A stretch of DNA of 39,230 nt. Source: Deltaproteobacteria bacterium. Its GTDB lineage: Bacteria; Desulfobacterota; Desulfobulbia; Desulfobulbales; S012-135. This document shows positions 5,164 through 39,230 of the stretch, piece by piece. The DNA lies in NCBI GenBank assembly GCA_015488275.1, contig WFOD01000033.1, forward strand, positions 1 to 39,230, in the 5' to 3' direction. The notes beneath the pieces were generated by a model. It saw nothing but the letters and a program-made list of their open reading frames with translations. It was not told the origin of the DNA and ran no database searches. The translations under genes and the position numbers were made by a program. Position 1 is the stretch's first letter, and every line of letters starts with the position of its first letter.

Positions 5164-6402
5164 ATGGGCGACCATGAGATCTGCTGCTCGTTCTGCGGCA
5201 AGAGCCAGGAAGACGTCAAAAAGCTCATCGCCGGACCGGCGGTCTATATCTGCGACGAGTGTATCGTCCTGTGCGAGGATATCCTGCGCGAGGACCGGGA
5301 GAAGGAGCTGGAGGCCGAGCGGCGGGAAGGCACCCTCAAGCCGGCGGACATTAAGCGTCATCTTGACGAGTACGTCATTGGCCAGGAGCGGGCCAAAAAG
5401 GTGCTTTCCGTTGCGGTGCACAACCACTACAAGCGGATCGAGTCGTCCCTGCGCGGCGACGACGACGTGGAGGTGCAGAAAAGCAATATCATCCTCATCG
5501 GCCCCACGGGCAGCGGCAAGACCCTCATGGCCCAGACCCTGGCCCGTATCCTCAAGGTGCCCTTCGCCATTGCCGACGCCACCACCTTGACCGAGGCGGG
5601 CTATGTGGGCGAGGATGTGGAGAATATCCTTGTGAGCCTGTTGCAGGCCGCAGACTACGACGTGGACCAGGCCAGCCGCGGCATCGTGTATATCGACGAG
5701 ATCGACAAGATCGCCCGCAAGGCCGACTCCGCCTCCATTACCCGCGACGTGTCGGGCGAAGGCGTGCAGCAGGCCCTGTTGAAGATCATCGAGGGCACGG
5801 TGGCCAACGTGCCGCCCAAGGGTGGCCGCAAGCATCCGCAGCAGGAGTACGTGCGGCTTGACACCACCAATATCCTGTTCATCTGCGGCGGCGCCTTTGT
5901 CGGTCTCGACGCGGTGATCAAGCGCCGCACCGGCACCAAGTCGATGGGGTTTGGCGCCAAGGTGGTGAGCAAGATCGACAAGAAGATGGGCGAGATCCTC
6001 GCCGAGGTGGAGCCGGAGGACCTGCTGTCCTTTGGCCTCATTCCCGAGTTGGTGGGCCGCCTACCGGTGATCGCCACGATGGACGAGCTGGAGGAGGACG
6101 ACCTCGTCCGCATCCTGCGCGAACCGAAGAACGCGCTCACCAAACAGTACGAAAAGCTGTTCGCCTACGACGACATCCGCCTGCGCTTCACCGAGGGCGC
6201 GTTGCGGGCCATTGCCCGCGAGGCCATGCGGCGCAAGGCCGGCGCCCGCGGGTTGCGCTCGGTGATGGAGAAGGCGATGCTCGATATCATGTTCGACCTG
6301 CCGAGCTCCGAGAACGTGGCCGAGTGTGTGATCAGCGAGCAGGTGATCGTCGGGGGAGAACCGCCGGTGATTCTCTACAAGAACGATAAAAAGAGCGCCT
6401 GA
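5164..6402 (+). CDS. clpX: Clp protease ATPase subunit ClpX
   Basis: An AAA+ unfoldase of 412 residues that feeds substrates to ClpP. The N-terminal zinc-binding domain has cysteines 8, 11, 30 and 33 (CSFC and CDEC). Walker A is GPTGSGKT and Walker B is YIDEIDK, followed by sensor and pore-loop regions ([22 protein letters not shown]). A GTG at 5158 would also open the frame. I prefer the ATG at 5164 because AGGAGG at 5151-5156 is correctly spaced from it and the usual ClpX N-terminus ([14 protein letters not shown]) starts there. The coding regions of clpP and clpX are only 2 bp apart. Confidence 0.98.
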
Positions 6403-6406
6403 GCCT

Positions 6407-8806
<2,400 letters not shown>

Positions 8807-17229: not shown

Positions 17230-17760
17230 ATGCCCGACGAACCGCCCGATACCGCCGCCTTGCGCGAGGCGATCTGCGCCCAGGCCGAGACCCTTACCGT
17301 CTCCGCCCGGGAGATCGTCCGCCATTTTCAGGTACTCAGAAGCGCTCGCGCCCCGCGGTTGATGATGGACGCGCCCGGCCTGTTCTATCCCGATCTCGAT
17401 CTGTACGTGATCTCCAAGGCCGGTGCCCACCGGGGCCATGCGGTGTTGTATACCATGATCGCTCCCCTCTTGCCCACGGGGCGGTTTCCGGCCTACGGGT
17501 TTGTCCTCTATCCAGAGAGCTATGTCCGTTCCTGCCTCGATCGCCTGTTGCGCAAGACCGTGCGGCCGGTCTGCGCGGAGATGCGCGTCTCTTTGGAAAA
17601 CGTGTTCAACAAAAAATACCATCCTGGGGAATCTCTAACCGATGGACCGGTGCTCCGGTCCCTGATCGCCCTCTTACGCGCGGATCTCGGTCTTAGCAGC
17701 CCGTTGAAAAATGGGCTGTGTGCGGCACAGGGACGTGCCGCCGAATTCCGCCGGCTCTGA
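17230..17760 (+). CDS. Unrecognised protein whose C-terminus is encoded by a mobile element
   Basis: A frame of 176 codons that I do not recognise. About 155 residues appear native. There is no signal peptide or membrane helix; the content is mixed alpha/beta with PRLMMDAPGLFYPDLDLYVISKAG, FPAYGFVLYPESYVRSCLDRLLRK and a final helix GPVLRSLIALLRADLGL. The last 21 residues (SSPLKNGLCAAQGRAAEFRRL) and the TGA come from the 152-bp element at 17697, so the element ended or changed the original C-terminus. GGAGG at 17210-17214 is 15 bp from this ATG, further than ideal; it is better spaced from the ATG at 17219, which opens only about 38 codons. I favour the 17230 start on coding length alone. Confidence 0.55.
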   Translation: MPDEPPDTAALREAICAQAETLTVSAREIVRHFQVLRSARAPRLMMDAPGLFYPDLDLYVISKAGAHRGHAVLYTMIAPLLPTGRFPAYGFVLYPESYVRSCLDRLLRKTVRPVCAEMRVSLENVFNKKYHPGESLTDGPVLRSLIALLRADLGLSSPLKNGLCAAQGRAAEFRRL

Positions 17761-17848
17761 AAGAGCCAAGGAATTCGTGAGGTTGGCCGGAACTCGGTTT
17801 TGGCCAACCGTGGTAGAAAAAGTCAGGGATGACTTTTTCGACGGGCTG
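17697..17848 (+). mobile_element. 152-bp non-autonomous hairpin element, complete copy, TTAG duplication
   Basis: The element runs CAGCCCG...CGGGCTG and is flanked by TTAG at 17693-17696 and 17849-17852. The ends form terminal inverted repeats of about 15 bp (CAGCCCGTTGAAAAA against CAGCCCGTCGAAAAA). It is almost entirely five successive hairpins: 17697-17718, 17722-17741 (GCGGCAC/GTGCCGC), 17742-17777 (CGAATTCC/GGAATTCG with an inner GGCTCT/AGAGCC), 17781-17809 (GGTTGGCC/GGCCAACC) and 17813-17842. It has no coding capacity, so it must be moved in trans. The right-hand TTAG contains the TAA stop of the GT41 gene. Confidence 0.85.
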
Positions 17849-19771
17849 TTAGCTGCCCGCTACTGACCTCCATTGGGTGTAGAGCGCTTCGAGATCCCGG
17901 CAGAAGCCGGCCTCGTCGCGCAGGGGGGAGTTCTCGAACCGTTGGCGCAGGGCGGGCGTGTCCTGACGCACAGCGCTGACCGCCTGCGCCAGGCGGCGGA
18001 CAATGGCCCGGTATTCTTCCTGATCATGGGCGATCCACTGCGTCTGTCCGACAGCGGTCAATAGCGAGGCGCCCACTCGGCCGGCGTGGCAAGCGTCCGC
18101 CAGGGTGACCACGGGCGTGCCCATCCACAGGGCCTCGCAGGTTGTGGTCGTGCCGTTGTACGGAAAGGTGTCCAGGGCGATGTCGATTTCCCGGTAAAAG
18201 GCAAGATGGTCCGCCGCCCGCGGCCGGAAGCCGGTGAGCCGCACCCGTTGCCCGGCGTTTGTTACCCCCCGGCTGGCAAAGGCGTTGAGGGTCGCGGCGC
18301 GCACCCCTGGATCGTCCAGGGAGCGGTTCTTGAGCAGCAGGCGGCTGTCGGGCAACTCGCGGAGGAGTGTTGCCCAGCAGTCGAGCACCGTATCGGTGAT
18401 CTTGGCGATGGTGCTGCAGGAGCCAAGAACCGCCGGCCCTGAGAGGGTTTTGCGCGCATCGATGTCGGCTGGCGGCCGAAAGCAGAGAAAGGCGCGGTCC
18501 ATCCGGGCCGGCGTTTCGCTCATGCGGCTGGGGAGATGGGGCGGATCGGCCGTGATGTCGGTGATGCGGTAGTCAACGGTTGGCAGGCCCGTGGTATCCG
18601 GATAGCCAAGCCAGGTGGCCTGGACAGGGGCTGCCCGCCGGGCCAGGAGGGCGAGGCGGTTGCCTTGGGTATGGCCGGCGAGATCGACGAGGATATCGAT
18701 GCGGTCGGCGGCGATCAGGCGGGCGGCGCTTTCGTCGTCCAGGCCGGCAATGGTGCGGAAGCCGTTTGCCAGGGAAGCGAGACGGGCGGTGATGCTGTCA
18801 TGGTGGTGCGTGGTGGCGTAACAAAACACGGCAAACCGCCGGCGATCGTGATGTTCCAGCACTGGTTCGAGGAACGAGGCCACGGGATGGCGGCGCAGGT
18901 CGCCGGACAGATAGCCGACGCGGATACGGGCGTCGTGTCTGGCGCCTGCGGGAGGGTGGCCGTTTGCCAGGGTGGTTCTTCCGGCCTTTGCCATGAGGGC
19001 GGCGCCAAAGCGCTGGTGTTCGGTGAACAGGGATTCTGGATCATCGCACTGGTAGTGCAGGGCCAGGAGCAGATTGCTGTGGAGCCAGGTGCCTGGGCCG
19101 CCCAGGGCGACAGCCTGTTGGTAGGCGGCCACGGCCTCGGACAACCGGCGGCTGTCGCGCAAGACGTTTCCCAGGTTGTTCAAGATGCGTGGGTCAGAGG
19201 GTGCCAAGGAGCGCGCTTTCTCGAGGGTCGCCCGGGCGGCGGTGAGCTCGCCGTTCAGGTGCTGGGCCGTGGCGAGCCCGAGAAGGAATCCCGGGTCTGC
19301 CGGCTCCCGCCGCACCGCCTGGCGGTGAGCGGCGAGCGCGCCAGGATAGTCCCCCATATCTCGCAAGAGGTTGCCCAAGTGATGGTGGGCCATTGCCTGG
19401 TCCGGCGCCAGGCGCACGGCCTGTTCGTAGCAACGGCGGGCGGCGGGCAAGTCGCCGGCCTGCCGGTGGAGGTTGCCGAGGTTGATCCAGGCTGCTGTCT
19501 GCTTTGGGGCCAAACGGAGAATGGCCTCCAACTGGCGGCGGGCCTCGTCGGGCTTGCCGCACCGCCGGTAGGCCACGGCCAGGTTGTTCCGGGCCTCCAC
19601 GTCCTCGGGCCGCCGGCGCACCAATTCCCGGAGGCAGCGGACGGCTGCGGGCCAGCGCTGCTGGCGGAGATGGGTCAGGGCCTCCTGTTGCAACCGTTGC
19701 TCCCTTTCTCCCTTGGAGGTGGATGCGGCCCTTTGCTGCCGGCGCTGCTTGCGGAAGCGGCGGAGGCGCAT
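17849..19771 (-). CDS. TPR-GT41 glycosyltransferase (O-GlcNAc-transferase-like)
   Basis: A cytoplasmic protein of 640 residues. After a basic N-terminus, about six tetratricopeptide repeats (about residues 30-230; for example AWINLGNLHRQAGDLPAARRCYEQAVRLAP) lead into a GT41 catalytic region: IRVGYLSGDLRRHPVASFLEPVLEHHD, DILVDLAGHTQGNRLALLARRAAPVQATWLGYPDTTG, IAKITDTVLDCWATLLRELPDSRLLLKNRSL, and DTFPYNGTTTTCEALWMGTPVVTL, the UDP-sugar site. Such enzymes attach sugars to Ser/Thr of target proteins or work on surface glycans. The target is unknown; the pilins in this window are one possibility only. The stop codon lies in the target duplication of the 17697 element. A small gene starts 4 bp upstream in the same operon. 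Confidence 0.9.
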   Translation of the reverse strand: MRLRRFRKQRRQQRAASTSKGEREQRLQQEALTHLRQQRWPAAVRCLRELVRRRPEDVEARNNLAVAYRRCGKPDEARRQLEAILRLAPKQTAAWINLGNLHRQAGDLPAARRCYEQAVRLAPDQAMAHHHLGNLLRDMGDYPGALAAHRQAVRREPADPGFLLGLATAQHLNGELTAARATLEKARSLAPSDPRILNNLGNVLRDSRRLSEAVAAYQQAVALGGPGTWLHSNLLLALHYQCDDPESLFTEHQRFGAALMAKAGRTTLANGHPPAGARHDARIRVGYLSGDLRRHPVASFLEPVLEHHDRRRFAVFCYATTHHHDSITARLASLANGFRTIAGLDDESAARLIAADRIDILVDLAGHTQGNRLALLARRAAPVQATWLGYPDTTGLPTVDYRITDITADPPHLPSRMSETPARMDRAFLCFRPPADIDARKTLSGPAVLGSCSTIAKITDTVLDCWATLLRELPDSRLLLKNRSLDDPGVRAATLNAFASRGVTNAGQRVRLTGFRPRAADHLAFYREIDIALDTFPYNGTTTTCEALWMGTPVVTLADACHAGRVGASLLTAVGQTQWIAHDQEEYRAIVRRLAQAVSAVRQDTPALRQRFENSPLRDEAGFCRDLEALYTQWRSVAGS

Positions 19772-19981: not shown

Positions 19982-20009
19982 TGGGAGCGCGCCAGGGGGG
20001 AGTAGGTGG

Positions 20010-20336
20010 TCAGCGGCTGGCCTTGCCCGCCGGCGGGGCGCAGAGCTGTACTACCTTTGGCGCGGGACGGGAGAGGCAATCCACGAGACGGCGCTGTTCA
20101 GCCGGAGACACCCGTGCGCCGTAACGCGCCATGTTTTTGAGCGTCCGCTTCCACCGGCGTTTGCTCTTTTTGCCGAGTTGCTGGCAGACCCGGGTAAGGT
20201 AGTGGCAGGACTCGCAGCGCTCGGTGAGCAGTTGGGCGCAGTCTGGGGGCGGCGACAGGGATTGGGCGGCGGCAAGGGTGGAGAGGCCCAACAAAAGGAG
20301 AGGGAGGCAGGAAAGACAGACCAGATGACGGAACAT
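20010..20336 (-). CDS. Small exported protein with one CxxCH haem motif
   Basis: A protein of 108 residues. I chose the ATG at 20336 because GAGAGGA lies correctly before it and a signal peptide begins there (LVCLSCLPLLLLGLSTLAAA). The mature part has CESCHYLTRVC, a single c-type haem motif, in a Lys/Arg-rich helical context (KKSKRRWKRTLKNMARYG). This looks like a short monohaem cytochrome c domain. No obvious axial methionine is present in the tail (APKVVQLCAPPAGKASR). The gene lies 28 bp upstream of the small gene before GT41 and is divergent from folA. Redox partner unknown. Confidence 0.7.
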   Translation of the reverse strand: MFRHLVCLSCLPLLLLGLSTLAAAQSLSPPPDCAQLLTERCESCHYLTRVCQQLGKKSKRRWKRTLKNMARYGARVSPAEQRRLVDCLSRPAPKVVQLCAPPAGKASR

Positions 20337-20474
20337 GACAGGTCCTCTCTTGATCGGTAACAATGGACAGCGCCGAATTGCTGGGGTATGGTGGGCCGCA
20401 GCCGGCAAGGCCGTAACTGGTCACGGGGGCTTTCCGACAGGCGGCCGGCAGGCGCGGCTGGACGCGAAACGATT

Positions 20475-21035
20475 ATGCGTAACTCTACCAAAAAAGCGGT
20501 GGGTGGCAAACCGGAAATCGTTCTTCTTGCGGCGATGGCGCGCAATCGGGTCATTGGCCGTCGGGGGACGATTCCCTGGCGCCTGCCGCGCGACCTGGCC
20601 CGCTTCCGGCAACGGACGATGGGGGGCGTGGTGATCATGGGGCGCCGCACCTGGCAGTCTATCGGCCGGCCCTTGCCCGGCAGGCGGGTCGTGGTCCTCA
20701 GCCGCGATCCGGGATTTGCTCCCCGGCTGCCAGGGGTGACGGTGGCCAGGGGGCTCCAGCAGGCCATCGCCCGGCATGGCCAGGAGCCGGCGCTGTTTAT
20801 CGCTGGCGGCGAGGGGGTGTACCGCGAGAGTTTGCCGCTGGCCGACCGGGTGGAGCTGTCGGTCCTCGACCGGGCGGTGGAGGGCGATACCTGGTTCCCG
20901 CCACTGCCGGCCGGGCGTTTTGTCCTTGAAAGGAGTGAACGGATCGAGGACGTGGAGCCTTTCACCTTGCGCGTGTACGTGCGGCGGCCGGAACAAGGTC
21001 CTGACGCGCGACTGGAGCCAGAAGAGGGAGAGTGA
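20475..21035 (+). CDS. folA: Dihydrofolate reductase
   Basis: A 186-residue enzyme reducing dihydrofolate to tetrahydrofolate with NADPH. Family motifs are clear: IVLLAAMARNRVIGRRGTIPWRLPRDLARFRQRTMG (with the catalytic Asp in LPRDL), VVIMGRRTWQSIGRPLPGRRVVVLSR, and IAGGEGVYRESLPLADRVELSVLDR. The start at ATG 20475 gives a slightly long N-terminus. There is no thyA next door. The TGA overlaps the ATG of the following membrane protein (TGATG), so the two are translationally coupled. Confidence 0.95.
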   Translation: MRNSTKKAVGGKPEIVLLAAMARNRVIGRRGTIPWRLPRDLARFRQRTMGGVVIMGRRTWQSIGRPLPGRRVVVLSRDPGFAPRLPGVTVARGLQQAIARHGQEPALFIAGGEGVYRESLPLADRVELSVLDRAVEGDTWFPPLPAGRFVLERSERIEDVEPFTLRVYVRRPEQGPDARLEPEEGE

Positions 21036-21802
21036 TGCGCCCAGAGCTTTCGCCCCGCGGTTTTGTCCACGGATTTCTCGCCCCTTGGCGGGCGGCGGCC
21101 TTTCTCCGCAAGCATAAGGGGTTGGTCCGTTATATTGCCATCCCCTTGACGATCAACATCGGTATCTTTTCCGCCACCGCGTGGATGGGTTTGCAGTTTT
21201 TCGACCGGATCGTGGCCCGCTATCTCCCGGCTGGCGACGCCTGGTACTGGGCCCTGCTTTCCTGGCTCGTGTGGCTCGCCGCCCTGCTCGTCGTCGCCTT
21301 GCTGGTGTTTTTTTCCTTTACCGTGATCGGCAACCTGATCGCCTCGCCGTTCAACGACCTGCTCTCCGAACAAACCGAGGCGTTGGTCCGGGGGCGCGCG
21401 GCCAGCGACGACACGCCGTTCTCCCTTGCCGTCTTCGTGCGCCAGGGACTGCGGACCATGGCCGAGGAGGGAAAGAAGATGGCGGTGTTCGTCGTTGGCA
21501 TGCTCCTCCTCCTTTTGCTCCACCTCCTGCCAGGCATTGGCGTGCTCCTCTATCCACCGCTCTCCTTTCTCTGGACAGTGTTTTTTCTTGTTGTGGAGTA
21601 CACCGGCTATGTTTTTGCCCGTAAGGGGCTGGCCTTTGCCGATCAACGGCGGTTCATCGCTGGCCGGGCCGCCACCATGTTCGGCTTTGGCTGCGGGGTG
21701 TTGTGCCTGCTCGCCATTCCCCTGCTGCAGCTCTTCTGCATCCCGCTGGCCGTGGTGGGCGCGACCCTGCTTTGGTGCGAAGCGCAGACCGATACCCCGT
21801 AG
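21035..21802 (+). CDS. EI24/CysZ-family inner-membrane protein
   Basis: A 255-residue protein with four to six hydrophobic segments. The EI24-domain features I recognise are GFLAPWRAAAFLRKHKGLVRYIAIPLTINI, FSFTVIGNLIASPFNDLLSEQTEAL, and LLLLHLLPGIGVLLYPPLSFLWTVFFLVVEYTGYVFARKGLAFADQRRFI. CysZ of this family takes up sulfate. The assignment to sulfate is not certain because the family is broad, but the sulfur-carrier operon lies just downstream on the other strand. The ATG overlaps the folA stop and follows a GAAGAGGGAG site. Confidence 0.8.
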   Translation: MRPELSPRGFVHGFLAPWRAAAFLRKHKGLVRYIAIPLTINIGIFSATAWMGLQFFDRIVARYLPAGDAWYWALLSWLVWLAALLVVALLVFFSFTVIGNLIASPFNDLLSEQTEALVRGRAASDDTPFSLAVFVRQGLRTMAEEGKKMAVFVVGMLLLLLLHLLPGIGVLLYPPLSFLWTVFFLVVEYTGYVFARKGLAFADQRRFIAGRAATMFGFGCGVLCLLAIPLLQLFCIPLAVVGATLLWCEAQTDTP

Positions 21803-22155
21803 CAGGTTACAGGGCACCCCATCTGCGGCGTCATCGGCCAGCTCGCGTAGCTTCCAAGGCGGCGCGTGCCTCTTTCCTGCATCCGGGGCGCTTGCAGCCA
21901 GTATATCTGGTCCGTGAGATTGGCCGAAATGTGCGTTTTGGCCGACCGGTGGCCGAAAAAGCCAGGACGGCTTTTTCGGCGGGCTGGCAGGGAAAGGGGC
22001 TTGGGCGTCAGTAGGAGCGCCGCCCGGATGGTTGCCGGCCGCGGCGGCCGGGGAGACCGCCGCGGCCGACCCCATGTCCGGGGGAGGAGAACATGCCGAC
22101 CTGCCTGCCGGGCCGACCCGCTGCTGTCTCCCGGCCGGCTGATCGCCATGACCTG
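21803..22155. other. Convergent intergenic region with a decayed element and a GC hairpin
   Basis: No credible gene is present. The region holds the decayed half element (21914-21986) and a strong hairpin at 22037-22067 (GGCCGCGGCGG against CCGCCGCGGCC, 9-nt loop). It lies between the 3' ends of the CysZ-like and JAMM-TusA genes. The hairpin has no T tract but could block or protect either transcript. Confidence 0.6.
21914..21986 (+). repeat. Decayed right half of the hairpin element
   Basis: The sequence aligns with the last two hairpins and the right end of the 17697 copy (GTGAGATTGGCCGAAAT..., ending GGCGGGCTG). The left half is missing and no flanking duplication is readable. The last stem is kept with paired changes (GCCGAAAAAGCC against GGCTTTTTCGGC), which suggests the structure matters. 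Confidence 0.7.
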
Positions 22156-22938
22156 TTACTGGTGTTTGCGGATGACGAGGCGCCAGGCGCCGTCGGGCAG
22201 TTGCCGGCGCTCGAGGATCGCGTGCCCTTCTTTTTCCACTGACTGGGGCACGTTTCTGATCGGCGGCCCGTCGTCGAGCACCACCTCGAGGTGCTGCCCC
22301 GGCTCGATGGCGGCCAGCGCCACCTTGACTTTGACCAGGTTCATTGGGCAGCCAACGCCGTGCAGATCAATGGCGCGGTGGATGGTCGCGGCCGTCTTGT
22401 CCTCTTGTGCCGGAGCGCCTGACATGGAGGAGGAGCCGCCGGGGAGGCTTGCGCCCTCCACCACGAGATCCAATTCGGTCACCGTTTGCTTGCGGATGCG
22501 AAAGGCGCGCACCGGTTTCTCTTCTCCTGGAAGCAGGGTAACGATGAGGTAAAGAAGGTCGGGATCGTGCGCCAGGCGGATATCTTCTGGCGACGGCCGG
22601 GCTGGGGAGGCCGGATGGCTGTGGTACACGCCGGCCAGGCGCAAGCCCTGCGACCGGATCGCCTTGACCACGGCGAACTGTTCGGCCGGATCCAGGGTGT
22701 AATGGTCTTCGGCCTTGTCTGCGTTGGTCATGGGAAAGGCGGCGCAGATACGGCCCTCGGCATCCTTGGCCAGGTAGCCGCACGCCTCGATGGGCGCCTC
22801 CCGTTGGGCGTGGGCGGCCATTTCTGCGTAAGCTTCCTGGGTGAGGCGCACGGGATCGCCGCCAGAATTTTCCTGCGCAACAGTTGCGGAGGATGGGGCC
22901 GGTCGGGGTATGGAGGGGACGGTTTGTGCGGTGTGCAT
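22156..22938 (-). CDS. JAMM metalloprotease fused to a TusA-like sulfurtransferase domain
   Basis: A protein of 260 residues. Residues about 30-160 are a JAMM/MPN+ domain: an early Glu (PIEACGYLAKD) and the zinc motif in GVYHSHPASPARPSPEDIRLA (H-x-H, then S-x-x-D). After a Gly/Ser-rich linker, residues about 190-260 form a TusA-like domain, IDLHGVGCPMNLVKVKVALAAIEPG, with the persulfide cysteine in CPMN where CPxP is usual. Bacterial JAMM enzymes such as Mec, QbsD and HcyD trim ThiS/MoaD-type carriers to expose the Gly-Gly end. TusA domains relay persulfide sulfur. The fusion thus joins carrier activation to sulfur delivery. It lies 33 bp after the E1-like gene in one operon. Confidence 0.88.
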   Translation of the reverse strand: MHTAQTVPSIPRPAPSSATVAQENSGGDPVRLTQEAYAEMAAHAQREAPIEACGYLAKDAEGRICAAFPMTNADKAEDHYTLDPAEQFAVVKAIRSQGLRLAGVYHSHPASPARPSPEDIRLAHDPDLLYLIVTLLPGEEKPVRAFRIRKQTVTELDLVVEGASLPGGSSSMSGAPAQEDKTAATIHRAIDLHGVGCPMNLVKVKVALAAIEPGQHLEVVLDDGPPIRNVPQSVEKEGHAILERRQLPDGAWRLVIRKHQ

Positions 22939-22971
22939 GGCGTTCTCCAGGATGTGGATGTGCGGTCGCGC

Positions 22972-23775
22972 TCAGGCGGCGCAGAGGATCGGGCCGCAGT
23001 CGGTCACCTCGGTGATACTCGGCTCCTTACCGCAAACCGGACAGTTGTCTTGCCGTTGGAGCGGTGTGCTTCGAAAACGCATGGCCAGGGCGTCGAAGGA
23101 GAGCAGCCGGTTGGTGAGCAACTCCCCGGCCCCGGTGAGGAACTTGAGTGCCTCGGCGGCTTGGATGGTGCCGAGCATCCCGGCCACAGCGCCCAGCACG
23201 CCGGCCTGGGAGCAGGAGGGCACAGCGTCCGGTGGCGGCGGCTCCCGGAAGACGCACCGGTAACACGCGCTCTTGCCTGGCAGCACGGTCATCGTCTGGC
23301 CGGTGAAACGCAGGATGCCGCCGTGGGAAAACGGCACGCCTTCGAGCAGACAGGCGTCGTTGACCAGGAATTTGGTGGGAAAGTTGTCCGCACCGTCGAT
23401 CACAAAATCGTACTGGCGCACCAACTGGCGCACGTTGCTGGCGTCAAGAAAGCAGTGGTGTGTAGTGACCTGGACTTCAGGGTTGATCGCCCGCATGGCG
23501 CGAGCCGCTGACTCCACCTTGGGCTGGCCGATGTCTGCGGTGGTGTGGGCGATCTGCCGCTGCAAGTTGGAGCGGTCCACGGTGTCGTTGTCCACGATCC
23601 CCACCACGCCGACGCCGGCCGCGGCCAGATAGAGGGCCACCGGCGATCCGAGACCGCCGGCCCCAACCACCAGCACCCGCCCATCCATGAGCCGTTCCTG
23701 GCCCTCAACGCCCACTTCGGCGAGAAGGATGTGGCGGCTGTACCGTTCAAGCTGCTCTTCGGTGAACTCTCTCAT
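22972..23775 (-). CDS. ThiF/MoeB/HesA-family E1-like adenylyltransferase
   Basis: A 267-residue enzyme that adenylates the C-terminal glycine of a ubiquitin-like sulfur carrier. Visible motifs: RYSRHILLAEVGVEGQERL, nucleotide loop VLVVGAGGLGSP, VDNDTVDRSNLQRQI (the Arg-finger region), VIDGADNFPTKFLVND, two zinc CxxC pairs (CYRC and CPVC), and SCSQAGVLGAVAGMLG, where MoeB proteins have a conserved cysteine. The ATG overlaps the carrier stop (ATGA), so production of carrier and activator is coupled. The surrounding genes point to thiocarboxylate-based cysteine or homocysteine synthesis, not thiamin or molybdopterin. Confidence 0.93.
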   Translation of the reverse strand: MREFTEEQLERYSRHILLAEVGVEGQERLMDGRVLVVGAGGLGSPVALYLAAAGVGVVGIVDNDTVDRSNLQRQIAHTTADIGQPKVESAARAMRAINPEVQVTTHHCFLDASNVRQLVRQYDFVIDGADNFPTKFLVNDACLLEGVPFSHGGILRFTGQTMTVLPGKSACYRCVFREPPPPDAVPSCSQAGVLGAVAGMLGTIQAAEALKFLTGAGELLTNRLLSFDALAMRFRSTPLQRQDNCPVCGKEPSITEVTDCGPILCAA

Positions 23776-24008
23776 TGTTGTCTGCCTCCTGTCAGCCGGT
23801 CGGCGCCGCCGCCCATGAAGTAGAGAAAGTCCACTTCGTCCTGGTCCGCGATAACCGTGTCGTTGTACTTGGCGCTGTAGATGATCGTGCCATTGAGTTG
23901 CACGGAGACCATCTCCGGGGCCTCCACCTTTTGGCTGCGGAGCAGTTCGGTGACGGTCAGCCGTTCGACGGGGAATTCGGCGGGTTCGCCGTTGAGGGTG
24001 ATGCGCAT
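23772..24008 (-). CDS. ThiS/MoaD-like sulfur-carrier protein with C-terminal extension
   Basis: A 78-residue ubiquitin-fold carrier: MRITLNGEPAEFPVERLTV, VSVQLNGTIIYSAKYNDTVIADQDEVDFLYFMGGG. In ordinary ThiS or MoaD the chain ends at Gly-Gly. Here ten residues (ADRLTGGRQQ) follow the GGG, so the carrier should be inactive until trimmed. The JAMM domain two genes downstream is the natural candidate, as in QbsE/QbsD, CysO/Mec and HcyS/HcyD. A second GG within the tail leaves the cleavage point open. A good AGGAGG site precedes the ATG. Confidence 0.9.
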   Translation of the reverse strand: MRITLNGEPAEFPVERLTVTELLRSQKVEAPEMVSVQLNGTIIYSAKYNDTVIADQDEVDFLYFMGGGADRLTGGRQQ

Positions 24009-24013
24009 GGTAT

Positions 24014-24094
24014 GCCTCCTGGTGTGTATGATTTTCTATTCCTTAATCCCGATCAAGTTAGTATGATTTTAAAGGACGGCTGAACGTTTGTCAA
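24014..24094 (-). promoter_or_regulatory. Promoter and candidate operator of the sulfur-carrier operon
   Basis: On the minus strand TTGACA (24089-24094), a 17-bp spacer and TAAAAT (24066-24071) form a near-consensus promoter. Just downstream an imperfect palindrome, CTTGATCGGGATTAAG (24042-24057), covers the expected start region. It fits a repressor site, most simply for the Rrf2 protein encoded upstream. AGGAGG at 24014-24019 is the ribosome site of the carrier gene. Confidence 0.7.
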
Positions 24095-24095
24095 G

Positions 24096-24124
24096 CAAAA
24101 AAAATGGCCCCGGAAAAGGGGGCC
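24096..24124 (-). terminator. Rho-independent terminator of the Rrf2 gene
   Basis: Read on the minus strand, GGCCCC-CTTTTCC-GGGGCC is followed by ATTTTTTTT. It lies between the Rrf2 stop and the promoter of the carrier operon, so the regulator and the pathway genes are separate transcripts. Confidence 0.85.
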
Positions 24125-24222
24125 GTGAGAAGCAGGCAGGCAGGAGGGTGGAGAGCGGGGGCAGATCTTCCTTGTATCCAGCCGTGGATGGAAACGGTCG
24201 GAAGGTTTTTCGGCGTGAAGTG

Positions 24223-24642
24223 CTAAATATGGAAGATGAGGGAGCGGGCCAGACGGTGCTGCCGTTCGGCCAACTCGGCGAGGGAGATGGAAAAGACTTG
24301 GCGGAGGGCGGCTTCCGCCTCCTCGAACAAGGCGGTGACCGCTTCCGGCACCGTGGCGCCGTTATCGCCCGCCAGGGCAAGACCGCCCTCCAGGGCTTCT
24401 AACGCCTCGAGGACGGAAATCTTGGCTGGCGGCCGGGCCAGACGATAGCCGCCGTGTTTGCCGCGCACGCTTTGCACCAGTTCGGTGCTGGTGAGGCGGA
24501 CGAGAATCTGTTCGAGATATTTTGGCGGGATGCCATGATGGTTGGCGATTTCTTTTGCCTGCACCAAGCCTTGCTCATAGCCTGTGGCCAGGGAGAGCAA
24601 GGCGGCGAGGCCGTAGCGCGATCTGGTGTTGAGGGTGAGCAT
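24223..24642 (-). CDS. Rrf2-family transcription regulator lacking cysteines
   Basis: A 139-residue winged-helix regulator beginning MLTLNTRSRYGLAALLSLA, the usual Rrf2 start. The recognition region is GIPPKYLEQILVRLTSTELVQSVRGKHGGYRLARPPAKISVLEALEALEG. It has no cysteine at all, so it cannot hold an Fe-S cluster like IscR or NsrR and is more like CymR, which senses cysteine status through partner proteins. The position upstream of the thiocarboxylate operon suggests control of sulfur assimilation. The promoter (24649-24677) leaves almost no leader before the ATG. Confidence 0.9.
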   Translation of the reverse strand: MLTLNTRSRYGLAALLSLATGYEQGLVQAKEIANHHGIPPKYLEQILVRLTSTELVQSVRGKHGGYRLARPPAKISVLEALEALEGGLALAGDNGATVPEAVTALFEEAEAALRQVFSISLAELAERQHRLARSLIFHI

Positions 24643-24648
24643 GGCCCG

Positions 24649-24677
24649 GTTGTACCCTAGGGGAGTCGGCTGGTCAA
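24649..24677 (-). promoter_or_regulatory. Promoter of the Rrf2 gene, implying a leaderless transcript
   Basis: On the minus strand TTGACC (24672-24677), 17 bp and TACAAC (24649-24654). Only six bases separate the -10 box from the ATG at 24642, so transcription should begin at or next to the start codon. No ribosome site is visible. Confidence 0.55.
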
Positions 24678-24745
24678 GGGGGATTCTGGCCGCGGCCGGG
24701 ACTGGCGCAACAGGAAAAAAACACATTTTGATTTTCCTGGTTCGC

Positions 24746-24751
24746 TATAAT
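24746..24751 (+). promoter_or_regulatory. -10 box for the hybrid kinase gene
   Basis: A perfect TATAAT about 80 bp upstream of the kinase ATG. No good -35 hexamer lies at 16-18 bp (TTGATT at 24729 is too close), so an activator may be needed. Confidence 0.4.
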
Positions 24752-24833
24752 TGGGAAAACATCGAAGAGGCTCCAGAGAGTTGCCGGATTCCTGCAAGTG
24801 TCATTTGCGGTGCAAAAGGTACGAAAGATACTG

Positions 24834-27800
24834 ATGAGCGTTTTCCTGTCGCCCAGGACGCGGAAGGGCGGTTGGCTCGCGCGCGGCGGTCGGGCAGGCG
24901 GCTTCGTGCCGATCTTCCTGCTGTTGTTGCTCCTGCCCACGGCCGCGCTCCGGGTCCAAGCCCAAGGGGAAGCGCCGCAGCCGGGAGACCGTTCCGTGAT
25001 CCGCCTGGCGGCTCCTGCCCTTGACGAGGAGGAGCGGCGTTTTCTCCAAGAGCATCCTGTCATCCGTATCGGCGTCGATCCTGACTATCCCCCTTTTGAC
25101 CGTCTCGCCGCTGACGGGCGCTACGAAGGCATGGGCGCGGACTATTGCCGCCTGGTGGCCGAGCGGTTGGGCGTGCGGTTCAAGGTGGTCCAGGGGCTCG
25201 ACTGGCAGGGCGCGCTTGCCGGGATTCGCGCCGGCGAGGTGGACATGATCCCTGTCATAACGCCGACGCCAGAGCGGCGGGAGTACCTGCTCTTCACCCA
25301 GAGCTATCTCCATTATCCTCTTGTTATCGTCACCAGGAAGGGCGCTTCTCCGGTGACAGGGCTTCACGACTTCATAGGCCGCCGTCTGGGGGTGGTGCGC
25401 GGCTACGCCACGGCCGAGGTCTTGCGGGAGCGCTTTCCCCAGATCGAGCCCTACGAGGTCCCCAACGTGCTGGCCGGCTTGCTGGCCGTGTCCACCGGCC
25501 AAGTGGGAGGTTTTCTCACCGACCTGGCGGTCGCCCTTTATCTGGCCGAGGAACATGCGATCACCAATGTAAAGCCCGCCGCGCCGGCCGGCATCCGGCA
25601 GCCGGGTTTCAGCATGGGGGTGCGGCGGGACTGGCCGCTTCTGGTCTCCATTCTCGACAAGGCCTTGGCCTCCATTTCTCCTGAGGAGCATCGGCGGATC
25701 CGCCAGCGCTGGCTGGGGGATGAGGAGGTCATCGACAAGATGGAGCAGGAGGTCTTGCGCCTCTCCGCAGAGGAGGAGCGGTGGCTGCAAGAGCATCCCA
25801 CGCTCCGGCTCGGGGTGGATCCCGCGTGGCCGCCGTTTGAGTTCTTCGACCAGGCCGGGGTGTACAGCGGCATCGCCGCTGATTACGTCGCCGCCCTTTC
25901 CGACCGGTTGGGCGTGCGCATGACGCCTGTTCCTGGACTTTCGTGGAGCGAAGTGCTGGAGCGGGCCGCCAAGCGGGAGATCGACCTCTTGCCCTGCATC
26001 ACCAGGACCCCGGCCCGTAGCCGTTACCTCCTTTTCACCCGTCCGTATCTCGATCTGCCGATGATCATTGTTACCCGCAGCGATTATCCGTTGGTCAGCG
26101 GCATCAGCGATTTTGCCGACGGCCGGCTCGCCGTGGTGCGGAATTATGTCAGCCATGAACTGCTCCAGCGCGACTATCCCCAAAAAAGGCTTCTTTTGCT
26201 GGAGTCCATTGACGCCGGGCTCGAGGCGGTGGTCGAAGGCCGGGCGGACGGCTTCATCGGTAACATCGCGGCGGTCTCCTACGCCACCGAGCGTTTAGGG
26301 ATGAACGGTCTCAAGGTGGCGGCCGCCACGCCCTATCGTTTTACCTTGGCGATGGCGGTGCGAGACGATTGGCCTGAGTTGGTGGCGATACTTGACCGGG
26401 CCCTGGCCGCCATCCCTAAGGAAGAAAAAGAGCGTTTTTACCAAACCTGGACCAGGGTGCGCGTGGAGCGACGCGTGGATTGGCGGGCCATGCGCCGGAT
26501 CGCCCTGGCCATCGGCGGTGTGGCCCTGCTGCTCATCGGCGCAAGCCTCTACTGGACCAGGCGGTTGGCGGCAGAGGTGAGGGTCCGGCGGCGGGCCGAA
26601 GCCGAACTGCTCAAGCTCACGCGGGCGGTGGAGTTTTCACCCGCCTCGGTGGTGATCACCGATCGCCAGGGCACAATCGAATACGTGAACCCCGCCTTTA
26701 CCGAGGTCACCGGCTACGCCCCCGGCGAGGTGCTCGGGCAAACCCCCAGAATCCTCAAATCGGGACGGCAGGACGAGGCGTTCTACGCCGATCTATGGCA
26801 GACCATCCTCGCTGGCCGGGTATGGCGCGGCGATTTCTGCAACCGCAAGAAGGATGGCAGCGAGTTTTGGGAGTCGGCGGCCATAGCGCCCATTATCGAC
26901 GAGTCTGGCGCGATCACCCACTTTGTGGCCGTCAAGGAGGACATCACCGAACGCAAGCGGGCGGAGGACGAACTGGCCAAGGCCAAGGAGCGGGCCGAGG
27001 CCGCCACCCGCGCCAAGAGTGAGTTCCTTGCCAACATGAGCCATGAGATCCGCACGCCGATGAACGCTATCCTCGGCATGTGTCACCTCTGCTTGCAGAC
27101 CATGCTCTCCGACCGGCAGCGGGACTATTTGGAAAAAATCGAGTTTTCGGCCCGTTCGCTTTTGCGCATCCTCGACGATATCCTTGATTTCTCAAAGATC
27201 GAGGCCGGCAAACTCTCGATGGAGCAAACTGAGTTCCTTCTTGCTGATGTCCTCTCCAACCTGCTCACCATGACCGCCTCGCAGGCCGAGGACAAGGGGC
27301 TTGAGTTTCTCGTCCGTCAGGATCCCGAGGTGCCCGAAGGCCTGGTCGGCGATCCCTTGCGCCTGACCCAGGTGCTGCTCAACCTGGTCAACAACGCCAT
27401 CAAGTTCACCGATCAGGGCGAGGTTGAGCTGGCCATCAGCGCCGAAGAGGTGGGCTCGTCCCAGGCCGTGCTCCGTTTCACGGTGCGCGATACCGGTATC
27501 GGCCTGTCCCCTGCGGAGCAGGAGCGGATCTTTGGCGCCTTTACCCAGGCCGACTCCTCCATCAGCCGGCGCTATGGCGGCACGGGCCTGGGGCTGGTGA
27601 TCTGCCGCCGGCTGGTGCAGATGATGGGGGGGGAGCTGTCGTTGCGCAGCGCCCCGGGACAGGGGGCCACCTTTAGCTTTACCGCGGTCTTTGGCCGGCA
27701 TGACCGGACAAAACGCAGGAGCACGGTGCCTGCTGGCCTGGCCGGAATGCGGGTTCTGGTGGTGGACGACAACGAGTCGGCCCGGCTCACCCTTGCCGAC

Positions 27801-29402
27801 ATGCTGCGCCGCATGGGCTTTGAGGTCCATCTTGCGGCGTCGGGTGGGGAGTGTCTGGCAGAGGTGATGCGGGCGGTGGAGGGCGAGGCGCCCTATGACC
27901 TCCTCTTGCTGGACTACCGCTTGGGAGATGGGGACGGCATTGCGGTTGCCCGACAGCTTCGGGAAAAGGTGGTCGAGGGCCGGCGGCCGCAGATCGTCAT
28001 GATCACTGCCTACGGCGGCGACGATGTGCGGGCCGCGGCCGCCGCTGTTGGCATCCACGCCTTTCTCGCCAAACCGGTGACGCCTTCGTCCTTGCTCGAC
28101 GCCATAGTCACTTCTCTCTGCCGCACAGAGCCTGACGCCGAGGTGTGCGCCTCCCTGGGGCCACGGTCCCAAGCCGTCCTGGCGCCAGGGTTGCGTGGCC
28201 GGCGGGTGTTGGTGGCCGAGGACAACGAGATCAACCGGCAAGTGGCGTCAGAGCTCCTTGCCTCGTGGGGGATGGAGGTGGAATGCGCGGCTGACGGCCG
28301 CGAGGCGGTGCGGTTGGCCTGCAAGCAGCGGTTCGATCTGGCGCTCATGGATATCCAGATGCCCGGAATGGACGGCCTTGCCGCCACCCGCCGCATCCGG
28401 GAGCAAGGCGGCCGTCTCGCCAGGATGCCCATCGTGGCCATGACGGCCCATGCAACCGAAGAGGCCAGGAGGCAATGCCTGGCCGCCGGGATGGACGCCC
28501 ATGTGGTCAAGCCCCTTGATCCGGATGGTTTGCAAGCGGTGTTGCTTGCACTGCTTGGCAACTCTAGCAGTCCGTCGAAAAAGCCATCCCTGGCTTTTTC
28601 GACTACGGTTGGCCAAAGCAGAGCTTCGGCCAACCTTACGAATTCCTTGGCTCTTTCAGAGCCGGTGGAATTCGGCGGCACGTCCCTGTGCCGCACACAG
28701 CCCGTTTTTCAACGGGCTGCTAGGGAGAAGGAGGCCGAGGAGAAGGCCGTTTTGCTCGATTCTGGGGCCGCCTTGCGGCGCTTGGCGGGTAATAGGCGGC
28801 TGTATCATCGTCTCCTTGCCGAGTTTGCGCGGGAACAGCGGGATGCTCCGCATAGGATACGCGCCGCCCTGGCGGCGGAGCGGGAGCGGGCCCGGCGGTT
28901 GGCCCACACCCTGAAGGGGGTGAGCGGCAATATCGGCGCAATGGCGGTGCACCTTCAGGCAAAAAAGGTGGAGGCGGCCATTGTCGAGGAGAACGATAGC
29001 GCTCTCGATCAGGCCCTGCGCGTCTTGCAGGAGATGCTGGCCGCGACCACAGCCGAGATTGCGCGTTATTCGGGAGCGGAAGCGGTGGCGGATCGCCCGG
29101 CAGAGACGGGGCAGGGCGGGGAGGAGGCCGGCGGCCTGCTGCAGGAGCTTGCGCGCCTCCAGCGGCTGGTCGAACTCCATGATCTGGAGGCGGAAGAGAC
29201 CTTTTTGCGCTTGGAGCCCCAGATGCAAAGACATTGCGCAAGCGAGTGCCAACGGCTGCGCCAGGCCCTTGCCCAGCTCGACTTTGCCGCCGCTGAGGCG
29301 ATCCTCAGGGAGATCGTTCTCCGCCAAACGGCGGAGGAAGCCAATCATCACCATCAGGAAGAAGAGGACATGTCCCATGAGCCAGCGGATTCTCATCGTT
29401 GA
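24834..29402 (+). CDS. BvgS/EvgS-type hybrid sensor histidine kinase containing an in-frame mobile element
   Basis: A protein of 1522 residues from the ATG at 24834, chosen over GTG 24798 because the signal peptide (FVPIFLLLLLLPTAALRVQA) fits it. Order: two periplasmic SBP_bac_3 solute-binding domains (about 72-295 and 320-545), a membrane helix (about 556-578), PAS-PAC (about 595-715), HisKA with phospho-acceptor His737 in NMSHEIRTPMN, an HATPase (about 850-965), two receivers (VLVVDDNES about 972; VLVAEDNEIN about 1122, Asp in LMDIQMPGMDG), and a C-terminal HPt domain with the His in RLAHTLKGVSGN (about 1357). Residues about 1244-1296, between receiver 2 and HPt, are encoded by the 152-bp element. 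It probably senses a small amino-acid-like ligand and relays to the overlapping partner gene. Confidence 0.93.
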   Translation: MSVFLSPRTRKGGWLARGGRAGGFVPIFLLLLLLPTAALRVQAQGEAPQPGDRSVIRLAAPALDEEERRFLQEHPVIRIGVDPDYPPFDRLAADGRYEGMGADYCRLVAERLGVRFKVVQGLDWQGALAGIRAGEVDMIPVITPTPERREYLLFTQSYLHYPLVIVTRKGASPVTGLHDFIGRRLGVVRGYATAEVLRERFPQIEPYEVPNVLAGLLAVSTGQVGGFLTDLAVALYLAEEHAITNVKPAAPAGIRQPGFSMGVRRDWPLLVSILDKALASISPEEHRRIRQRWLGDEEVIDKMEQEVLRLSAEEERWLQEHPTLRLGVDPAWPPFEFFDQAGVYSGIAADYVAALSDRLGVRMTPVPGLSWSEVLERAAKREIDLLPCITRTPARSRYLLFTRPYLDLPMIIVTRSDYPLVSGISDFADGRLAVVRNYVSHELLQRDYPQKRLLLLESIDAGLEAVVEGRADGFIGNIAAVSYATERLGMNGLKVAAATPYRFTLAMAVRDDWPELVAILDRALAAIPKEEKERFYQTWTRVRVERRVDWRAMRRIALAIGGVALLLIGASLYWTRRLAAEVRVRRRAEAELLKLTRAVEFSPASVVITDRQGTIEYVNPAFTEVTGYAPGEVLGQTPRILKSGRQDEAFYADLWQTILAGRVWRGDFCNRKKDGSEFWESAAIAPIIDESGAITHFVAVKEDITERKRAEDELAKAKERAEAATRAKSEFLANMSHEIRTPMNAILGMCHLCLQTMLSDRQRDYLEKIEFSARSLLRILDDILDFSKIEAGKLSMEQTEFLLADVLSNLLTMTASQAEDKGLEFLVRQDPEVPEGLVGDPLRLTQVLLNLVNNAIKFTDQGEVELAISAEEVGSSQAVLRFTVRDTGIGLSPAEQERIFGAFTQADSSISRRYGGTGLGLVICRRLVQMMGGELSLRSAPGQGATFSFTAVFGRHDRTKRRSTVPAGLAGMRVLVVDDNESARLTLADMLRRMGFEVHLAASGGECLAEVMRAVEGEAPYDLLLLDYRLGDGDGIAVARQLREKVVEGRRPQIVMITAYGGDDVRAAAAAVGIHAFLAKPVTPSSLLDAIVTSLCRTEPDAEVCASLGPRSQAVLAPGLRGRRVLVAEDNEINRQVASELLASWGMEVECAADGREAVRLACKQRFDLALMDIQMPGMDGLAATRRIREQGGRLARMPIVAMTAHATEEARRQCLAAGMDAHVVKPLDPDGLQAVLLALLGNSSSPSKKPSLAFSTTVGQSRASANLTNSLALSEPVEFGGTSLCRTQPVFQRAAREKEAEEKAVLLDSGAALRRLAGNRRLYHRLLAEFAREQRDAPHRIRAALAAERERARRLAHTLKGVSGNIGAMAVHLQAKKVEAAIVEENDSALDQALRVLQEMLAATTAEIARYSGAEAVADRPAETGQGGEEAGGLLQELARLQRLVELHDLEAEETFLRLEPQMQRHCASECQRLRQALAQLDFAAAEAILREIVLRQTAEEANHHHQEEEDMSHEPADSHR
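28568..28719 (-). mobile_element. 152-bp hairpin element, complete copy inside the hybrid kinase gene, CTAG duplication
   Basis: An inverted copy of the 17697 element with exactly the same length and about a dozen differences by eye. It is flanked by CTAG at 28564-28567 and 28720-28723. Element plus one duplication is 156 bp, or 52 codons, so the reading frame continues with no stop and yields an interdomain linker. Its internal hairpins are all preserved, including a paired change in the GTCGAAAAAGCC/GGCTTTTTCGAC stem. Confidence 0.88.
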
Positions 29403-30491: not shown

Positions 30492-30536
30492 GCGGCACGT
30501 CCCTGTGCCGCATCCAGCCCGTTTTGCAACGGGCTG
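30492..30536 (-). repeat. Partial hairpin element (two hairpins) at the end of the minor pilin gene
   Basis: It contains the GCGGCAC/GTGCCGC hairpin (30492-30511) and the 22-bp palindrome (30515-30536). The remaining three hairpins are absent. It is followed by TTAA at 30537-30540, whose TTA is the stop codon of the minus-strand PilX-like gene. No matching left-hand duplication is seen. Confidence 0.75.
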
Positions 30537-31961
30537 TTAATAACGGGTGGGCGTGCCGGCGTTGAAGTTGAACCGGATCGCGAGATCCTGGACTTCGGAT
30601 TTGCTGAAGGCGGTGCCGCCAAGGGCGTGGAGGCCGATTTCGTCTGGCAGGCGGGTGGAGAAGTTCTCCGAAGTCAGGCTGGTGTCCACGATGCAGGAGC
30701 AGTCGCCGGCCGCTGAGCAGTCGTTCGCGGAATCGCAGCCGCTCCACTGGACGAGGGAGAAGTCGGAATAGTCCCAACTGATGGTCCCGTAGCTGTAGCT
30801 CGTATCGGCGTAATAGGCGGTGATGAGGTTCTCCCGCACCCCTGGGCTCTGGTATTGCTCCTGGACCCGGATGATGAGGGAGGTCGGATTGTCGAAATCG
30901 CTGCCGAGCAGCAGGGCGCTTGGCGCTGGGATCATCTCGAGCACGGTCTTGACCCCAGCCTCCTGTTTCCAGAGCATGAGATACTGGGCGCCGCTGCTGA
31001 AGCTCACCGGATCGCCGTCCCGATCGACAAAGGAGGGCAGCGTCCCCCCTGAGCCCACGTCCACCAGGGAATATCCGTAAAACTCGTCGTTCGATGGATC
31101 GGTGTCGTGATCGGTATCGAGACGGAAGGAGATGCCGGTCACCACGTCGTCGGCGGTCAGGTTGAACTTGGCCTGGATTTCGTAGGTGAGGAGGTTGTCG
31201 CTGTGGAGCCAGACATCAAGGAGGTCGGGCAACGAGGAGGATGAGTTGTTCCAGTCGAAGCTCACGGTCACCGGCGTGCTTCCTTTCATGAGCAAGGTGT
31301 CGCCGCTGACCTGCGGCGAGCCGGTGGTGTTCCAGTCGTCGGGATCGAGTTGGCTCGATCCCGGGCTCGCGGTGGTAAAGGGGATCGGCGTGCCGCTCGC
31401 TCCGCCGGGCGGCCGGTAGACGTTGATTTCGTAGATTACCGCCCGGCTGGCGCTGGCCGTGGTATCGCCCGTGCTGGTCAAGGTGTAGAGATAATCGCTG
31501 TAGGTGAGGTCAAGGGTGAAGGTCGAGCCGTCGGCAAGGGTGAAGGTTTGGTCGTCCAGGCTTGCCACCAGGGCGGTCCGCTGGGCGTCCGTGGGGGGAG
31601 AGCCGCCGCCGTATTCGAGATCGACGATCTGCTTGATGGCGTACCGGCCTCCGGCCTCGGCAAGATAGTAGGCGCGGATGAAGTCGGTGGAGCCGGTCTG
31701 GAGCACCAAGGAGCTTGTGGAAAACAGGCTCATGGCCGCGCCCAGGGTGGCGACCACGGTGAGGCCGATGACGAGCACCACGAGGACCGAGCCGGATTGG
31801 TCCCGCAGGTGGCGGCCTCTGCCGCCAGACGCGGGGCCGTGATGGCCGAACAAAGGACCCGGAGGCGAATTCACCGACGGGATCGGCGCGCCACATGCTG
31901 GCTGGAGGGGGTCAGTGGATGTTGCGGGGCCGGATACGGGCTGTAAAGGTCGCTTGTTCAT
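30537..31961 (-). CDS. PilX/MshP-like minor pilin with large C-terminal domain
   Basis: A 474-residue protein from the ATG at 31961; an upstream extension overlaps the preceding gene and looks spurious. After about 50 proline-rich residues comes QSGSVLVVLVIGLTVVATLGAAMSLFSTSS and FIRAYYLAEAGGRYAIKQ, the PilX/MshP N-terminal pattern. The remaining 370 residues are Ser/Thr/Asp-rich and probably beta-sheet (FDWNNSSSSLPDLLDVWLHSD, RLDTDHDTDPSNDEF, FVDRDGDPVSF), with a cysteine cluster near the C-terminus (CDSANDCSAAGDCSC). This may be an adhesive or tip domain, which is inference. Its 5' end overlaps the previous pilin gene by 50 bp. The stop coincides with a hairpin element. Confidence 0.75.
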   Translation of the reverse strand: MNKRPLQPVSGPATSTDPLQPACGAPIPSVNSPPGPLFGHHGPASGGRGRHLRDQSGSVLVVLVIGLTVVATLGAAMSLFSTSSLVLQTGSTDFIRAYYLAEAGGRYAIKQIVDLEYGGGSPPTDAQRTALVASLDDQTFTLADGSTFTLDLTYSDYLYTLTSTGDTTASASRAVIYEINVYRPPGGASGTPIPFTTASPGSSQLDPDDWNTTGSPQVSGDTLLMKGSTPVTVSFDWNNSSSSLPDLLDVWLHSDNLLTYEIQAKFNLTADDVVTGISFRLDTDHDTDPSNDEFYGYSLVDVGSGGTLPSFVDRDGDPVSFSSGAQYLMLWKQEAGVKTVLEMIPAPSALLLGSDFDNPTSLIIRVQEQYQSPGVRENLITAYYADTSYSYGTISWDYSDFSLVQWSGCDSANDCSAAGDCSCIVDTSLTSENFSTRLPDEIGLHALGGTAFSKSEVQDLAIRFNFNAGTPTRY

Positions 31962-39155: not shown

Positions 39156-39230
39156 CCGAAAAGGAGCCAAGAAATTCGTGAGGTTGGCCGAAACTTTGTG
39201 TTGGCCAACCGTGGTCGAAAAAGCCAGGGA
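39156..39230 (+). repeat. Hairpin element running off the right edge, upstream of the secretin gene
   Basis: From about 39156 the sequence matches the third to fifth hairpins of the 17697 copy (GAGCCAAGAAATTCGTGAGG, GGTTGGCC/GGCCAACC intact, then GTCGAAAAAGCCAGGGA cut by the window end). The left part is diverged or replaced by other GC-rich palindromic DNA (39060-39130). Confidence 0.8.

Follow-up and report, generated by a model that had tools for sequence, protein, structure and literature searches.

Genes and signals of the carrier operon

Three minus-strand genes of the window (the whole 39,230-nt stretch of DNA that was analysed) form an operon headed by a small sulfur-carrier gene, and a gene for an Rrf2-family regulator adjoins it. 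The features of the locus are listed below.

22156-22938, minus strand: fusion of a JAB metalloprotease domain with a TusA domain (Prok-JAB 8.1e-23, TusA 5.8e-19)
22972-23775, minus strand: E1-like adenylyltransferase of the ThiF/MoeB family (Pfam ThiF 4.5e-84)
23772-24008, minus strand: ThiS/HcyS-like sulfur carrier, 78 aa, with GGG followed by a tail (TIGR01683 54.1 bits, cut-off 37.45)
24039-24066, minus strand: 28-bp operator-equivalent region TCATACTAACTTGATCGGGATTAAGGAA, the top match of a matrix built without the window
24042-24057, minus strand: palindrome of the initial annotation, CTTGATCGGGATTAAG, symmetrical at 6 of 8 base pairs
24051-24062, minus strand: conserved left arm and core ACTAACTTGATC, contributing 18.5 bits to the score with the 28-position matrix
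24066-24071, minus strand: -10 box TAAAAT of the carrier operon
24089-24094, minus strand: -35 box TTGACA of the carrier operon
24106-24124, minus strand: intrinsic terminator GGCCCC-N7-GGGGCC with a T-run, end of the Rrf2 transcript (-13.2 kcal/mol, z -2.27)
24223-24642, minus strand: gene of the Rrf2 regulator, a cysteine-free protein of 139 aa ending in IFHI (Pfam Rrf2 1.8e-30)
24649-24677, minus strand: probable promoter of the Rrf2 gene, TTGACC-17-TACAAC, read by eye and not flagged by the consensus scan

Upstream of the carrier gene, the minus-strand sequence is TTGACA-AACGTTCAGCCGTCCTT-TAAAAT-CATACTAACTTGATCGGGATTAAGGAATAG...AGGAGGCATACC-ATG. The TTGACA-17-TAAAAT promoter agrees with the consensus at 11 of 12 positions and was the best of four promoter-like sites in a consensus scan of positions 20000-28000, and CTTGATCGGGATTAAG lies shortly downstream of it. 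The initial annotation had placed a palindrome at 24042-24057 after a near-consensus promoter, and this was confirmed in the sequence; the palindrome is unique in the window, where the pattern CTTNATCNNGATNAAG, with up to one mismatch, occurs once against 0.01 expected. A riboswitch was set aside as an alternative, since neither the window nor four further loci gave any Rfam match beyond tRNAs.

The start of the Rrf2 gene at 24642 was picked by comparison with orthologues. The protein read from this start holds no cysteine, and the hairpin with its T-run (24124-24106) sits between the Rrf2 gene and the carrier promoter, in agreement with the earlier description of a cysteine-free Rrf2 protein encoded next door on its own terminated transcript. 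Membership of the Rrf2 superfamily was clear (TIGR00738, 97 bits against a cut-off of 73.3; PF02082, 106 against 30). CymR was the best-scoring equivalog model, and the CymR structures 2y75 and 3t8r were among the best solved-structure sequence matches. Because its score of 79.7 bits falls below the cut-off of 195 of the CymR equivalog NF047409, we file the protein as a member of the Rrf2 family and not as CymR; it may work in a CymR-like manner. Fe-S ligands were absent from the window protein, and the orthologues hold 0-2 cysteines that do not follow the IscR pattern, the IscR-type three-cysteine ligand set being found in none of the 25 Rrf2 orthologues. A separate IscR-like Rrf2 protein with seven cysteines is encoded in the same genome. 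The reading frame of the window gene is intact and the wing and C-terminal tail are conserved, whereas the recognition helix is altered compared with most relatives (IPPKYLEQILVRL).

HcyS, HcyF and HcyD are the carrier, E1 and JAB protease of the thiocarboxylate route to homocysteine. The same set, carrier, E1 and JAB protease, occurs together in the window operon, which contains no O-acetylhomoserine sulfhydrylase gene. Relatives from the window's order have, between the carrier and E1 genes, a PLP-enzyme gene of the O-acetylhomoserine sulfhydrylase family (best model TIGR01326, 336 bits, under its cut-off of 495). The window's genome carries homologues of this PLP enzyme on contigs C237 and C45, together with a metX-like gene, so named from its sequence. 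The sulfhydrylase-like enzyme of the relatives points to homocysteine and methionine, and not cysteine alone, as the likely output of their operon, with homocysteine made via a protein thiocarboxylate; such a route in Wolinella is attributed to Krishnamoorthy and Begley 2011 as cited in PMC5764234. From the gene content of the operon in the window and in relatives, and from the metX and PLP homologues in the genome, the target of the regulator would be sulfur amino-acid synthesis, probably that of homocysteine. In the papers searched, no relevant case of an Rrf2 protein controlling a homocysteine or CysO-type operon came up.

Several side observations were made. The JAB and TusA domains, fused in one gene in the window (22156-22938), are encoded by two adjacent genes in several relatives, for example at locus L051. 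At locus L048 (G000:C47), a second JAB-domain gene lies beside a large YcaO-like gene with TPR repeats (5962-6441 and 6495-8303), and similar second JAB copies are found in genomes G003, G004 and G027. Elsewhere in the window, dispersed inverted and direct repeats were seen at 17694-17852, 28564-28722, 30492-30545 and 39161-39230 (159 nt at 92 percent and 70 nt at 89 percent); they contain AGCCCGTTTTTCAACGGGCTGCTA hairpins and occur on other contigs of the genome too.

The palindrome at carrier promoters and its copy in the window

The footprint search covered 258 genomes of the order, the relatives all coming from families other than the window's; the same 258 also make up the whole set for its class, probably the Desulfobulbia of the Desulfobacterota. 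Orthologous Rrf2 genes were found in 25, the window's included, and most of them stand directly 5' of the carrier. Eighteen relatives have Rrf2 proteins without Fe-S ligands, and their carrier promoter carries a common 28-bp palindrome, CTTGACTAAnnTGATCAnnTTAGTCAAG, with arms CTTGACTAA and TTAGTCAAG and the central core TTGATC (symmetric consensus, CTTGACTAACTTGATCAAGTTAGTCAAG). It is spaced 38-42 nt from the TTGAC box, its centre about 40 nt past the -35 box. The motif was aligned on TGATCA, at first by eye, and was therefore tested with matrices built from other families. At all 18 loci, each about 2-3.4 kb long, these leave-one-family-out matrices gave the promoter site the top rank, usually well over the score of the runner-up. 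Three held-out operons with the palindrome scored 30.4, 21.5 and 15.8 bits, and two of these have it in the space that separates the divergent Rrf2 and carrier genes. Conversely, none of nine operons with the same carrier and no adjacent Rrf2 gene had the palindrome (scores of at most 6.4 bits), while it was present in 21 of the 22 testable relatives having Rrf2, two others having been left out because of contig ends. In genome G231, where the Rrf2 gene is away from the carrier, there was no convincing site in 11 kb. The footprinting upstream of orthologous carriers that had been proposed as a check thus came out in favour of an operator at the start site, conserved with Rrf2 and missing without it.

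At locus L056 (genome G007), the carrier promoter holds a perfect 40-bp palindrome, CTTAATCTTGATTAAATTGATCAATTTAATCAAGATTAAG (about 2291-2330), which may leave room for more than one dimer. Three carrier operons without Rrf2 (L039, L041 and L052) have an Lrp/AsnC-type-looking gene immediately 5' of the carrier.

When the window was scanned with the matrix built without it, 24039-24066 ranked first in its whole length and on both strands, with 8.1 bits in the symmetric version. In 200,000 random draws, none reached the 18.5 bits of the left arm and core, and this site is the only place in the 2.8-Mb genome where ACTAANNTGATC occurs exactly. The right arm has diverged (-10.5 bits), and 4 of 13 symmetrical pairs are kept. 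The distance from GATC to the -35 box is 40 nt, inside the range of the relatives. As the left arm and core are kept and the right arm is diverged, the CTTGATC that had been drawn as a half-site is in fact the conserved core. Hence the initial annotation stands in part: 6 of 8 pairs of its palindrome are symmetrical, but the half-sites as it drew them are not supported, GATTAAG falling outside the conserved register of the relatives. Similarly, its candidate Rrf2 operator over the carrier start site is supported in position and in co-occurrence with Rrf2, but not in extent, which is 28 bp in the relatives. With the right arm lost and the recognition helix changed, the window site could be weaker or differently recognised; the joint change of arm and helix may reflect co-evolution, weakening or a recentred site.

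Reach of the regulator

The window's whole genome was scanned by patterns, and the full matrix was applied to the loci examined. The 16-mer pattern gave 15 genomic sites with up to one mismatch, four of them exact, against 1 in the reversed-pattern control. The other three exact sites all lie within long open reading frames, and a 16-mer regulon was rejected. The wider regulon that had been envisaged, with the motif near cysteine and sulfate genes, was not found in the pattern scan of the genome or at the loci examined, among which the genome's own cysE-cysK-metX-metY cluster, the MetY copy on C45 and the IscR-like gene had no operator; nor did a CymR-style global cysteine regulon emerge from the examined loci and the genome-wide patterns. 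In the relatives, the listed matches to ACTAANNTGATCANNTTAGT with at most one mismatch were operon promoters, and matches with three mismatches were about as frequent as those of a reversed control. A site on G016:C52 (15.1 bits) was set aside, as the reading frames on either side both point their 3' ends towards it. Across the phylum, Rrf2 matches had no carrier match and no convincing operator in their loci, and a related-locus search of the genome's contigs gave one distant match. By the pattern scan of the genome, the regulator looks local to the carrier operon rather than global.

A model for the regulator and its relation to known systems

Conservation, position at the promoter and co-occurrence with the Rrf2 gene are shown for the palindrome by sequence comparison, and from these we infer direct binding and repression by Rrf2 at the predicted operator. 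That the cysteine-free Rrf2 protein encoded next door has its operator at 24039-24066 is given a probability of about 0.78. The ancestral site would be the palindrome CTTGACTAAnnTGATCAnnTTAGTCAAG, whose 28 bp begin at the last base of the -10 box and reach across the start site. Because of this span, a bound Rrf2 dimer would exclude RNA polymerase and so block the promoter that serves the carrier, E1 and JAB-TusA genes, acting locally on one carrier operon. In the window copy, with left arm and core kept and the right arm diverged, binding may be weaker or asymmetric.

Three other readings were weighed. The operator might be the 16-bp palindrome CTTGATC-GG-GATTAAG itself, recentred in the window's lineage. 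The 16-mer is found once in the window against the 0.01 expected, the L050/L056 promoter has similar 16-mers (TTTAATCAAGATTAAG and CTTAATCTTGATTAAA), and the right arm of the window misfits the 28-bp register; yet the position of GATC 40 nt from the -35 box is that of the relatives' 28-bp register, the 16-mer alone occurs in no relative, and its half-site spacing of 9 bp is below that of the arms of TGTAA-N9-TTACA (PMC9218516) or the 23-bp NsrR site (PMC9338935). We consider this reading unlikely. A slightly smaller chance is given to the window site being a decayed remnant, whose promoter has escaped repression while Rrf2 acts elsewhere or not at all. The lost right arm, the PLP gene gone from the window operon and the changed recognition helix would all agree with decay, but 12 contiguous bases of left arm and core are intact, the Rrf2 frame is open with its wing and C-terminal tail conserved, and no stronger site appeared in the loci examined, the genome as a whole having been scanned by patterns.

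Least probable of all is use of the conserved palindrome by another DNA-binding protein. Some Rrf2-less operons do have an Lrp/AsnC-like gene upstream, suggesting that the regulators of this operon change; the palindrome, however, follows the Rrf2 gene (21 of 22 testable relatives with it, 0 of 9 operons without it adjacent) and stands between the divergent Rrf2 and carrier genes in two genomes. The neighbouring Rrf2 protein is very probably the ligand of the site, through which it would control sulfur amino-acid synthesis.

Each of the 25 orthologous Rrf2 proteins has a variable linker and then a terminal F/Y-x-I. In B. subtilis, the CymR-CysK complex stabilises the DNA binding of CymR (PMC4961446), and CymR is listed among the C-terminal isoleucine-motif proteins that interact with CysK homologues (PMC12895370). 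The window's genome encodes a CysK above the curated cut-off, with TSGNTG and QFANPAN motifs, and the terminal isoleucine is absent from 11 of 12 CysE tails, that of the genome's own CysE included. In an out-group of the phylum, seven Rrf2 proteins (L146-L152) with 3-4 cysteines end in YQI, and in the three neighbourhoods read (L146, L149 and L150) a cysteine-synthase-like gene directly follows, which suggests a second CymR-CysK-like pair. On the strength of the isoleucine tail, the CymR-CysK precedent, the genome's own CysK and the CysE and out-group tails, we tentatively propose a CymR/CysK-like co-repressor complex at the carrier operator, at a little under even odds. The invariant isoleucine tail would dock into CysK, a step already proposed for CymR of B. 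subtilis. The complex would repress while the supply of sulfur amino acids is ample, and a shortage of sulfur would let O-acetylserine build up and lift the repression. By analogy, and somewhat more tentatively still, the protein may be this class's CymR-like repressor, with CysK, held through the isoleucine tail, as sensor and co-repressor that couples O-acetylserine/cysteine status to the thiocarboxylate homocysteine operon through a new 28-bp operator.

Such a system would provide a candidate operator and sensing mechanism for an Rrf2 protein without Fe-S ligands or, in the window protein, any cysteine, and would tie regulation to the thiocarboxylate pathway for homocysteine, which has been little studied. 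Judging by the isoleucine tail, the CymR-CysK partnership of Bacillus may exist in a distant phylum too.

Like IscR, NsrR and RsrR, the window protein has a winged-helix domain of the Rrf2 type, and its predicted operator is likewise a palindrome in the range of about 20-28 bp (23 bp for NsrR; PMC9338935); unlike these Fe-S regulators, the protein has no three-cysteine cluster ligands. The arm-spacer-arm geometry of the conserved operator (ACTAA-N10-TTAGT) resembles that of HypR/SifR (TGTAA-N9-TTACA; PMC9218516); unlike those thiol/quinone-sensing repressors, the window protein has no sensing cysteine, and the site has a conserved TGATCA centre. In its carrier, E1 and JAB protease genes, and with the O-acetylhomoserine sulfhydrylase-like enzyme found in relatives, the operon corresponds to the HcyS/HcyF/HcyD/MetY methionine pathway of Wolinella succinogenes, while the window operon departs from it in having a TusA fusion and no PLP gene. 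The closest parallel is CymR of B. subtilis and S. aureus, which likewise has an Rrf2 fold without an Fe-S cluster, a C-terminal isoleucine and a sulfur amino-acid target, and for which CysK is the co-repressor in B. subtilis. In contrast to CymR with its global regulon, the window Rrf2 scores 79.7 against the 195-bit cut-off and appears to serve one local target, a carrier-protein operon with the operator CTTGACTAAnnTGATCAnnTTAGTCAAG.
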